Shown here: positions 14,576-27,820 of the stretch, piece after piece
Numbering within the stretch: position 1 is the stretch's first letter
How the letters are laid out: each line of letters begins with the position of its first letter
Virus record (IMG/VR): IMGVR_UViG_3300042383_001062
Span: 1-28,319 of that record
DNA: 28,319 nt
Origin: a virus
Direction: 5' to 3' (one strand)
The notes under the pieces: model-generated
The model's database searches: none
Seen by the model: the letters and a program-made list of their open reading frames with translations, nothing else
Told to the model about the DNA's origin: nothing
Program-made: the position numbers and the translations under genes

Positions 14576-14604
14576 ATTATACACCATATTCCAACGTTTG
14601 TCAA
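14576..14604 (-). promoter_or_regulatory. Perfect sigma70-type promoter with overlapping inverted repeat
   Basis: On the minus strand TTGACA (14599-14604) and TATAAT (14576-14581) are separated by exactly 17 bp, so both hexamers are consensus. TTGG occurs 4 nt after the -35 box. TTGGAATAT and ATATTCCAA (14586-14594 and 14566-14574) form a 9-bp inverted repeat centred on the -10 box, an arrangement typical of an operator. The predicted start near 14569 leaves a 22-nt leader to the 147-aa gene. Confidence 0.9.
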
Positions 14605-17117: not shown

Positions 17118-19439
17118 TTAAAGCTTACAAGATTCGCAATCACTTTCATCATCTTCATCGATGCCACTTGGTAATTCAACATCATCTTCTGATTTTGAAC
17201 CTTGTTTGGATATTAATGAATAATAGAATGTTTTCAAACCAAATTTATGTGCTAACATTAAGTTTTTAGCAATCAATGTAGTTGGTATTTTTCTATCAGG
17301 AAAATGTGCTGGATTATAAAATGTATTGGTACTAATACTCTGATCCGTAAATGCTGCTAATACCGCTGCAGTTTTTAAATATCCGATGCAATCAGTTTGT
17401 TCCCACATTAACTGGTATTTGTTCTTCAGTTTATGATATTCTGGAACTACTTGTGTTAATGATGCTGCTTTTGATTCTTTCGTTTGAATTAACTGCATTG
17501 GCATTTCAATACCATTGGTGCTATTAATAACAACTGAACTAGATTCAACTGGTGCAATTGCCATTTGTGTAGCATTGCGAACACCGCTAACTTTCATTCT
17601 TTCACGCAATGGTTCCCAAGGACATTCTGGTGTGAAATCTGTTAATTCATTTACACCATCTGCACGTAGTTCCCATGGGAAGATTCCTTGTCCATATCTG
17701 GTTTTATCGCTATGTAAACACGGACCACGTTCTTCGGCTAGTTCAACACTAGATTCAGTTAAGTAAAATGACTGATGTTCCATCCAGCTTTTAACTTCGG
17801 CTAACATATCAGCTTCGCCATATTTCATACCACGTTTAGCTGCCCAGTACGCCAAGTTGGTGATACCAATACCAATTGGACGAATTTCATCGTTTGACAA
17901 CTTAGATTGTATTGACAAGAAGTCTTGGTAATCTAAAATATTGTTCAAGCTACGATGAAGGATACGGCAAGCTCTACGCATATCTTCTGGGTTTCTAAAT
18001 GCTCCCCAGTTAATAGACCCCAAAGTACATAACGCTATACGTCCGTCTGGATCGTCTAAACGCTTAAATGGCTTAGTAGGGAGCAAAATTTCACAACATA
18101 AATTTGATTGGTATATTGTGTGATGTTCTGGGTCAAATGGACCTTGTTTCATTACATTATCAATGAACACTAAGTAGATTCTACCGGTATCAGTTCTTTC
18201 TTTTAGAATACCACCTTTGAATACTTCTTCAGCACTCATTGTTTTTTTACGTAAGTCTTTACGTTTTTCGTATTTTACGTAGAGTTCTTCAAATTTTGTG
18301 GTATTTTGATAGAATGCTTCATATAAATCTGGTACTTCATTCGGGTCAAAGAAAGTAATGTTTCCTTTATCCTTAAAACGTCTCCAAAAGAATGCTGATA
18401 ATACAACACCATAATCCATATGGCGAACACGAGTTTCTTCAGTTCCTTGATTGTTTTTAAGTACAATCAGGTCATCGAATTGATAATGCCAAATTGGGTA
18501 AAATACTGTTGCCGATGCATTTCTAACACCACCTTGTGAGCAAGAACGTAGATCACCAAACCATTTTTTAAGGAATGGAATGAATCCGGTATGCATAATT
18601 TCACCATTTCTAATAGGTGAACCTAGTGGGCGCAATCTACCAACTTCTAAGCCTATGCCAGCACGTTTACTGGCATATTTGGCCATCATTTCACCAGAAG
18701 CAAAAATGCTGTCAAGATCGTCATCGCTCCGTATAAGGACGCAGCTAGAAAATTGTTTTGTTGGAGTTCCAAGCCCAGCAAGAACAGGAGTAGCAAGAGT
18801 GAATAGACCATCGGACGCAGCATTATAATATTCCTTTATGTATTTCATTCTGGCAGAATTTGGTTCTTCATTATAAAAGACTGTTGCTGCCGCAATCATG
18901 TATCGTACTTGTGGTGTTTCAAATACTTCTTTTGTTGCGCGGTTTCTGATCAGATATTTCTCAATCAACTGTTCAATTGCAGCGTATGAGTATTGCTCGT
19001 CTTTATCATGATCAATGAAAGACTCCATTTTATTCCAATCATCTTCACTATACCAGTCTAATAGTTCTGGTGTATAAAGACCGATTTCTACGTTTTTTAT
19101 TACGATATCATATAAACGTGGTGGGGCATATTGTCCATATACATCTTTGCGTAACATTGACAGTCGTTGTTTACCGGCAACGTATTGGTAGTTTGTATGG
19201 CCTACATCTGGATTCGCTTCAACATCGATAAGATCAACGATTGCACGTAGTGTGATTTCATCAATTTCTTTAGTAGTGATACCATCATAGTAATGAGGTT
19301 GGCTTTTGATTTCAATCATTGATTGACTAACATCTGCGATTCCAGCGCAAACCTTAGCAATTTGTGACTGCCATTTTTCAATGGTTAATGGCTCTTTGCT
19401 GCCATTTCGTTTAATTACTGTAATTTTATTCATATCCAT
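17118..19439 (-). CDS. nrdA: Ribonucleotide reductase class Ia large subunit NrdA
   Basis: Catalytic subunit that reduces ribonucleotides to deoxyribonucleotides. It is 773 aa, typical for the family. The first 100 residues form an ATP-cone (ITVIKRNGSKEPL), the allosteric activity site. Catalytic residues: Cys233 in KQFSSCVL, Asn446, Cys448 (thiyl radical) and Glu450 in SNLCCEI, Cys471 in ALCTLGSIN. The Tyr739/Tyr740 pair of the radical path is in KTFYYSL. The C-terminal CESC (Cys768, Cys771) is the redox-active tail re-reduced by glutaredoxin, matching the glutaredoxin at 13690. GAGGAT lies upstream of the ATG at 19439. Two promoters are possible: a TATAAATA box at 19484 and a sigma70 promoter at 19585-19613 behind a hairpin. 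Confidence 0.96.
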   Translation of the reverse strand: MDMNKITVIKRNGSKEPLTIEKWQSQIAKVCAGIADVSQSMIEIKSQPHYYDGITTKEIDEITLRAIVDLIDVEANPDVGHTNYQYVAGKQRLSMLRKDVYGQYAPPRLYDIVIKNVEIGLYTPELLDWYSEDDWNKMESFIDHDKDEQYSYAAIEQLIEKYLIRNRATKEVFETPQVRYMIAAATVFYNEEPNSARMKYIKEYYNAASDGLFTLATPVLAGLGTPTKQFSSCVLIRSDDDLDSIFASGEMMAKYASKRAGIGLEVGRLRPLGSPIRNGEIMHTGFIPFLKKWFGDLRSCSQGGVRNASATVFYPIWHYQFDDLIVLKNNQGTEETRVRHMDYGVVLSAFFWRRFKDKGNITFFDPNEVPDLYEAFYQNTTKFEELYVKYEKRKDLRKKTMSAEEVFKGGILKERTDTGRIYLVFIDNVMKQGPFDPEHHTIYQSNLCCEILLPTKPFKRLDDPDGRIALCTLGSINWGAFRNPEDMRRACRILHRSLNNILDYQDFLSIQSKLSNDEIRPIGIGITNLAYWAAKRGMKYGEADMLAEVKSWMEHQSFYLTESSVELAEERGPCLHSDKTRYGQGIFPWELRADGVNELTDFTPECPWEPLRERMKVSGVRNATQMAIAPVESSSVVINSTNGIEMPMQLIQTKESKAASLTQVVPEYHKLKNKYQLMWEQTDCIGYLKTAAVLAAFTDQSISTNTFYNPAHFPDRKIPTTLIAKNLMLAHKFGLKTFYYSLISKQGSKSEDDVELPSGIDEDDESDCESCKL

Positions 19440-19510: not shown

Positions 19511-19568
19511 AAAAAAAAGGTAAATGATTGATTTAAAACAGTTTTTAAGCTGTTTCAAACCAATCATT
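19511..19568 (-). terminator. Strong hairpin with T8 tract: terminator or attenuator before nrdA
   Basis: On the minus strand 19568-19550 pairs with 19541-19523 as a 19-bp stem around an 8-nt loop (CTTAAAAA), followed after 4 nt by eight T residues (19511-19518). Two of the pairs are G-U wobbles that become mismatches on the plus strand, so the structure is specific to the minus strand. It lies between the tailspike stop and nrdA, about 10 nt downstream of the predicted start of the 19585-19613 promoter. It may end tailspike transcripts, attenuate nrdA transcription, or define a small RNA of about 65-70 nt. Confidence 0.8.
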
Positions 19569-19584
19569 ATCGTTAATATGAAGT

Positions 19585-19613
19585 ATTATACACCAATTAC
19601 GCCAAGGTGTCAA
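19585..19613 (-). promoter_or_regulatory. Perfect sigma70-type promoter upstream of nrdA
   Basis: On the minus strand TTGACA (19608-19613) and TATAAT (19585-19590) are spaced 17 bp apart. TTGG follows the -35 by 2 nt. The element sits just past the tailspike stop codon, and predicted initiation near 19578 places the hairpin at the very 5' end of the RNA. Confidence 0.9.
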
Positions 19614-19620
19614 CACCAGT

Positions 19621-21753
19621 TTAGCTTCTTGCAGTGTATGAATACGTGAACGTGCCGTTATCATCTGATAACGCATTGAAGTATGAAAACACTAATCCGT
19701 ATGGTGTTGACGTTGTTGTGATTTGATTTGTTTGTGACAAGAAGTTGACTTTAAATAAAATTGCAGTGTTAAAGTCTTCATTCCCAACATAATTGTATTC
19801 GTCAACGGTTTGAATGCGTTTATTTGGAATATCAGCAGTAATAGTGATAGTTCCAGAACGTGAGAAATCATTGATTGTACTTACATATGTATAAGCTATT
19901 TCATAAGTGATTACACCAGTTGGTAACAATGTAGAGAATGACACTGGTAGCCTGAACAATTTTGTAACAAATTCATTATTAGTAACAGTCAATGAAGAAC
20001 CATATGCATGATAATCACCATGTCCTGCGAGTTCTGGAATGTACGGGGCATTGTTATTCGGTGATAACAGTAAATCTTTTCTATCACTTATTACATTTGA
20101 AATCATATTTCCACGAGTTCCAATGTAAATTTGTGGATGTAATGGAACAGCAGAACTACCCCCATCATTGCCAACATTTCTCAATACAATAGAATCAATA
20201 TTATTTGAACTGCCTAACCCAATATAAATGGCATTCCACTTTACATTATAAAATTTATAATTGTTTATAGTTGATTGACGAGAACCAAATTGTTGTCCTA
20301 CAGTAGCACCATTTGAATTTAATCCTAACATGAATCCATATTTTACATCTGAAATATAGCCCTTATTAAAATATGAATTAATTATATCATTATCTGAAAA
20401 TATTCCGTAGGTGAATGATGAAATTATTATGTTGTTAAAAATATTATTTTCACATGTTACTAATGCACTATTAGCAGTCATTAATATACCGATACTATTG
20501 TTATCAGATGCTTCTAACCAATTTCCAGTTATTTTGACATTTTCAAATATACTATTACGTACTGAATACAAACCTATACCAGCTTGAGCCCCGTGTTCGG
20601 TTGAAATTGTTAAATTTTTAATGGTGATATTTCTTGGTTGATTAAGGGATGTATTATTCGCTGCATCGCTTGGTGACCCCGGTGATGATTCATCATTGAC
20701 TAGTTGGATTACTGGTCCAGTTGGTACTAGCGATACTGTAAATGATTGATTGGTTTGTGTACTATATGCACCTTGTGATATAGTTAATGAAACGCCTGGA
20801 ATAACACTTACTACTGCAGAGCCACCTTGAATCCCGGTACCAAGAACAGTCGCGCCAATCATACTTAGTTTAGCAGATGCTGTATTTAAAATAACAGTTC
20901 CAACAGTAATAGAACCAATAATTGATACTACTGGATTATAATTAATTATTGTGTTATCAATACCAGAACCAGATAACACAGCATAACTTGGTATATATAA
21001 AGAATCAGAAATATTATATGTTCCAGCTGGAATATCCAATACTACTCGTGAACCAACACCAGTATCATCAGATGCATGAATTGTGTTTAAGTATAGATCA
21101 TCAATTGCATTCTGTAAAGCTTCAGTATCATCAACTATGCCATCACCAACTGTTCCGAAATCTTGTGTATTAACCCTATCATCTAATCGAGATTGTAATG
21201 AGCGTTTTACTGCGTGTGCAATAGTTGGTCCTGTTTCATTACTCAACCCAGTGATGGTAAGTGTGAAACCAGTACCGTTGCCAATTACAGAAGTTGGGAC
21301 TGTGAATATAGTATTCATTAAAATACCAGATCCGTAAAATATCATATCAACTACGGTGACTTCACCATTAACGATAGTCAAATTTACAGTAGGATACGTT
21401 AACGGTGAGGTATTAGTTGAAACTTGGACTAGTTGGACATTTTTGTAAACCCCATTGGTATAACCAGAACCATTTGAAAATGCAAATGATGACACTGCTC
21501 CACTTGCTTTATAAACATATGATAATTGACCAAACAGTGATGCAGGTGCTTCGAAAGCTTCTAAATCTAATTCTGTTAGTAATCGGGTATTACCAACAAC
21601 TGGTGCACCTTCCGAGACTGCACCATTGCCAATAAATAATTGTTGCGTATCAATTGCCCACGCTAATTCCCCACTCGCTAATTGTGGTAAACCGGTCCCG
21701 CTATTTGCTTTTCCACGGCGTTGTTGAATTCTTGAAATCTGGGTTATTGCCAT
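19621..21753 (-). CDS. Tailspike with pectate-lyase-type beta-helix (710 aa)
   Basis: Probable host-recognition or polysaccharide-degrading spike. The N-terminus (ISRIQQRRGKANSG, then LASGELAWAIDTQQLFIGNG, residues 5-44) is the phage head-binding or capping segment seen in Mtd-type and hyaluronidase-like virion proteins. Around residues 195-270 is the opening of a pectate_lyase_3 fold: VNTQDFGTVGDGIVDDTEAL, then VVLDIPAGTYNISDSLYIPS and GSGIDNTII. A long run of Asn-rich beta-helix coils follows (ITIKNLTIS, NSIFENVKITGN, NNIFNNIIISSF) to about residue 560. The last 130 residues form a separate beta-rich C-terminal domain. Catalytic residues cannot be assigned from sequence alone. A CATAAATA box and GAGGA lie upstream. 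Confidence 0.85.
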   Translation of the reverse strand: MAITQISRIQQRRGKANSGTGLPQLASGELAWAIDTQQLFIGNGAVSEGAPVVGNTRLLTELDLEAFEAPASLFGQLSYVYKASGAVSSFAFSNGSGYTNGVYKNVQLVQVSTNTSPLTYPTVNLTIVNGEVTVVDMIFYGSGILMNTIFTVPTSVIGNGTGFTLTITGLSNETGPTIAHAVKRSLQSRLDDRVNTQDFGTVGDGIVDDTEALQNAIDDLYLNTIHASDDTGVGSRVVLDIPAGTYNISDSLYIPSYAVLSGSGIDNTIINYNPVVSIIGSITVGTVILNTASAKLSMIGATVLGTGIQGGSAVVSVIPGVSLTISQGAYSTQTNQSFTVSLVPTGPVIQLVNDESSPGSPSDAANNTSLNQPRNITIKNLTISTEHGAQAGIGLYSVRNSIFENVKITGNWLEASDNNSIGILMTANSALVTCENNIFNNIIISSFTYGIFSDNDIINSYFNKGYISDVKYGFMLGLNSNGATVGQQFGSRQSTINNYKFYNVKWNAIYIGLGSSNNIDSIVLRNVGNDGGSSAVPLHPQIYIGTRGNMISNVISDRKDLLLSPNNNAPYIPELAGHGDYHAYGSSLTVTNNEFVTKLFRLPVSFSTLLPTGVITYEIAYTYVSTINDFSRSGTITITADIPNKRIQTVDEYNYVGNEDFNTAILFKVNFLSQTNQITTTSTPYGLVFSYFNALSDDNGTFTYSYTARS

Positions 21754-26673: not shown

Positions 26674-26701
26674 AAAAAAGCCCCACTAAAAAGTGAGGCT
26701 T
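26674..26701 (-). terminator. Rho-independent terminator after the 135-aa gene
   Basis: AAGCCTCACT and AGTGGGGCTT on the minus strand form a 10-bp stem with one U-G wobble and a TTTT loop, followed by TTTT. On the plus strand the wobble is a mismatch, so the element acts on the minus strand, 22 nt past the stop codon. Confidence 0.82.
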
Positions 26702-27817: not shown

Positions 27818-27820
27818 CTT

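Follow-up and report, generated by a model that had tools for sequence, protein, structure and literature searches.

The junction described here lies between a tail gene and nrdA of a T4-like phage, both on the minus strand of virus record IMGVR_UViG_3300042383_001062; the window, that is, the whole stretch of DNA analysed, is 28,319 bases long. The upstream neighbour of nrdA (19621–21753) encodes a tail or tailspike-like protein with a weak match to PHROG tail families, and its counterparts preceding nrdA in relatives are 30–44% identical across most of their length. The nrdA gene (17118–19439, with its ATG start codon at 19439) encodes the large subunit of ribonucleotide reductase (PHROG 84, E 9.4e-266). 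It is 83–86% identical to the nrdA of relatives, many of which are found in IMG/VR, and the closest nrdA of a named phage is that of Xanthomonas phage X1 (61% identical). In X1 and in Moby, tRNAs and small genes, not a tail gene, precede nrdA, and no close matches were found in the phage collection.

Two promoters upstream of nrdA

Directly 3′ of the tail gene stop codon we found a sigma70-type promoter that matches the consensus at 12 of 12 positions, with TTGACA at 19613–19608, a 17-nt spacer and TATAAT at 19590–19585 (minus strand). This perfect promoter had been pointed out in the earlier note, and we can add that 48 distinct relatives share its position and spacing. The window contains three perfect consensus promoters, whereas 60 shuffles gave 0.05 on average. 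Transcription from the one at the junction would start near 19578, leaving a leader of about 140 nt to nrdA. Another, at 14604–14576 (minus strand), has its -10 inside a 13-pair inverted repeat (TTGGAATATG-GTGTATAAT-CATATTCCAA), and TGATAAGG occurs about 15 nt downstream of that -10.

A separate box for nrdA, also pointed out in the earlier note, is indeed present: TATAAATA (19491–19484, minus strand), which is a T4-type late-promoter sequence (PMC3014915) with the TAAATACTTCCTA core and gives a leader of about 40 nt. Because its count in the window is not significant (5 seen against 5.2 expected), its status as a late box rests on its position just 5′ of the gene and on the conservation of a TATAAATA-like box there in the family. 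TAAATA is also found upstream of the tail gene, a 1956-aa gene and others in the window. In G001 (IMGVR_UViG_3300028393_000019), a relative of 265 kb, it lies upstream of 59 of the 238 genes, as compared with 19 in shuffles, with a peak 10–40 nt upstream; the reversed word, which overlaps ATAAATA, precedes 42 genes. A gp55-type late sigma is encoded in two relatives, but was not found in G001 or seen in the 28-kb window, which is a fragment. The likeness to T4-type late promoters served by the gp55 sigma comprises the box before nrdA, further TAAATA boxes ahead of structural genes in the window and the sigma genes of relatives; a difference is the conserved CTTCCTA extension downstream of the box.

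The order of the two promoters recalls T4 gene e (lysozyme), where the late promoter is located between the early promoter and the gene (PMC3014915). At nrdA, too, an early-type promoter lies upstream and a late promoter close to the gene, so that a long early leader might mask the ribosome site of nrdA and the late transcript free it. However, the real early leaders are more open at the ribosome site than shuffled ones (0.62 versus 0.57, Wilcoxon p 0.006), as is the leader of the window (0.53 versus 0.46). As folding shows no sequestration by the early leader, we rejected such a switch at nrdA and regard it as extremely improbable.

At another gene, in G001 (around 229536–229640), the inverted repeat GTAAACT..AGTTTAC surrounds a TATAAATA late box, and in the relative L220, 3′ of its pattern match, GTACACT..AGTGTGC does the same, the arms covarying with those of G001. 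The ribosome site adjoins the right arm, and this repeat looks like an early/late leader switch of the gene e type.

The hairpin and T8 tract

Between the two promoters is a 19-pair hairpin at 19568–19523 (minus strand), with the stem AATGATTGGTTTGAAACAG / CTGTTTTAAATCAATCATT (4 G-C and 2 G-U pairs) and a loop of 8 (CTTAAAAA). The 4-nt spacer TACC (19522–19519) separates it from eight Ts (T8, 19518–19511). The stem and T8 were both described in the earlier note and both far exceed chance, but the TACC spacer between them had been overlooked. No other stem in the window is as long, the maximum in each of 25 shuffled windows being 0–18 pairs, and none of these 25 contained a stem of at least 12 pairs with T6 or more. 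Its folding energy is -21.4 kcal/mol (z = -6.8) with one dominant fold, and T8 occurs only once on the minus strand of the window. The minus-strand specificity attributed to two G-U wobbles also holds, since these pairs improve the minus-strand RNA hairpin and no T-run follows on the plus strand.

The element thus resembles an intrinsic (Rho-independent) terminator in having a stable RNA hairpin and a T-run, specific to the minus strand, at a gene end. It differs in that the stem is AT-rich (4 of 19 pairs are G-C), the T-run does not follow the stem directly but 4 nt later, and a consensus promoter lies upstream. The TACC spacer weakens it as an intrinsic terminator. With a d'Aubenton-type formula, the element scores -17.5 with the spacer, and +31.5 when the spacer is ignored and the T-run alone is counted; by the same formula, the terminator at 26701 scores +25.9 and that at 27819 -19.7. 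Because of the spacer and the AT-rich stem, we class the element only as terminator-like in function and probably weak.

The hairpin begins about 10 nt past the predicted start of the sigma70-type promoter (near +11), with T8 next, and this placement would suit an attenuator that halts transcripts from this promoter early and later, with a phage or host factor, permits passage into nrdA; an attenuator had been one suggestion of the earlier note. The succession of promoter, terminator-like hairpin and gene is indeed that of a leader terminator. Unlike known transcription attenuators, the locus shows no competing antiterminator in its short leader, where one fold dominates, nor a conserved leader peptide (leader ORFs are of 0–48 codons). 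The 26-codon ORF (MIGLKQLKNCFKSIIYLFFDTLLYKL) at 19567–19487 (minus strand), which overlaps the hairpin and T8, was rejected as a leader peptide, having neither a ribosome site nor a conserved counterpart. The hairpin and T8 are also absent from the 48 relatives that retain the promoter, so that a conserved attenuator is unsupported; attenuation in this one phage is possible, and overall we consider regulated attenuation unlikely.

Comparison with relatives

All nrdA leaders were collected, giving 38 distinct sequences including the window, with the 17-nt promoter spacing; scans for the late box only yielded eleven further sequences, all 11 of which carry the promoter. Altogether, in 48 distinct relatives the tail gene is succeeded by a sigma70-like promoter with 17-nt spacing, then by the late box and nrdA, and the distance from promoter to late box is 101–120 nt in 49 of 49 family sequences, window included. 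A search that started from the tail gene and made no use of the promoter led to loci of which 15 show both a promoter-like site immediately past the tail stop codon and a late box ahead of nrdA. The four remotest loci (L097–L100) do not show this pair, and one further locus is cut off. The usual form of the promoter among relatives is TAGACA or TTGAC(A/C/T) at 17 nt from TATAAT, and a conserved AAATGCG directly precedes the -10. We rejected the idea that it is a genome-wide phage motif: no record contains the -10 core CG(C/T)ATATAATT more than twice, and the spacer pattern of the 30 other sigma70-type promoters in G001 is different.

The segment between promoter and late box is variable among relatives. 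A hairpin with at least three G-C pairs followed by T5 or more was found in none of the 48, and the window stands alone in this respect; weak AT-rich 9-bp hairpins with short T-runs in L003 and L013 are the sole other cases. The tandem promoters are conserved, and the hairpin with T8 is not. The comparison of nrdA leaders proposed in the earlier note thus bears out the promoter, but not the order of promoter and hairpin, whose lack of conservation the note had named as a ground for refutation.

This comparison also bears on two other roles for the hairpin. A stable transcript of about 68 nt, bounded by the promoter and T8, would agree with the strong promoter, the stable hairpin and the T8 end, and the earlier note had suggested a small RNA of about 65–70 nt. 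There is no Rfam match, no similar hairpin was found in IMG/VR (three matches to the 5′ arm are unrelated sequence), and relatives lend no support, which makes a small-RNA gene highly improbable. Alternatively, the hairpin might be a 5′-end structure that stabilises the nrdA mRNA made from the sigma70-type promoter, not a terminator. Its start near +11 would suit this, and L059 and L135 have strong hairpins similarly placed without a T-run; yet T8 follows the hairpin in the window, and a strong 5′ hairpin is missing from most relatives. Such a stabiliser seems quite unlikely to us.

A probable leaky terminator within a tandem promoter region

All four minus-strand hairpin and T-run elements of the window (26701, 21820, 19568 and 12443) have TAAATA 9–29 nt downstream, where about 5% would be expected for each. 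Those at 26701–26664, 21820–21780 and 12443–12385 are canonical terminators, and just upstream of the tail gene itself lie a canonical terminator and a late box. On the plus strand of G001, 7 of 20 such elements lie at most 60 nt before TAAATA (about 0.5 expected); the reverse-complement box is that close to none of the 20. Exceptions to the pattern exist, since the reverse-complement box is near two of the four window terminators and only 1 of 18 terminators on the minus strand of G001 has a late box nearby. Terminator, late promoter and gene nevertheless form an apparent common boundary between transcription units in these phages, and the hairpin takes the position in which a terminator often precedes their late promoters. 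This weakens the earlier argument that a terminator serving only the tail gene would have no need to follow a strong promoter.

We therefore favour, as the probable reading, that the hairpin and T8 are a leaky tail-gene terminator within a conserved tandem promoter region of nrdA. The gene would be served by two stacked promoters, the sigma70-type one for pre-late transcription and the T4-type TAAATACTTCCTA late promoter, with the AT-rich hairpin and T8 inserted between them in the window phage only. There the element would end tail-gene transcripts right before the next late promoter, like the other terminators of this phage. An efficient terminator would starve nrdA of transcripts from the strong promoter, and the two elements conflict unless the terminator is leaky. 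The weak stem and the 4-nt spacer make leakiness probable; from the sequence, partial termination is expected, some sigma70-promoter transcripts would reach nrdA, and a partial attenuation of early transcripts may be a side effect. As a counterpoint, a comparable terminator is missing from this junction in every relative, and ending tail transcripts there is thus not generally needed.

In this widespread group of uncultured T4-like phages, nrdA has conserved tandem sigma70-type and late-type promoters, so that dNTP synthesis is probably supported in the late phase as well as before it. The hairpin is no conserved regulator but a local addition.

Sequences around the -10 box

In relatives, the segments upstream and downstream of the -10 of the nrdA promoter are complementary beyond expectation (p 5e-5 with arms swapped, 28 representatives), and the repeats are centred on the -10 (centres -6 to +4, Fisher p 1.5e-5; centres +8 to +25, p 0.96); these p values are optimistic, as the representatives are not fully independent. 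The repeats are individually significant in 8 of the 28 (examples are seen in L087, L003, L075, L194, L188, L175 and others), and their arm sequences differ between phages while complementarity stays. They are not general to the promoters of these phages, a possibility that we rejected because the other promoters of G001 lack them (p 0.46). Read-through tail transcripts might then fold differently from promoter-started ones, and the hairpin and T8 of the window could be a variant of such a device; the nrdA promoter of the window has no repeat of this kind (p 0.34–0.5), and we regard this reading as quite unlikely. In the same region, GATA, mostly inside (A/G)TGATAA(G/A), lies 6–28 nt after the -10 in 34 of the 38 family leaders, where about 11% would be expected.
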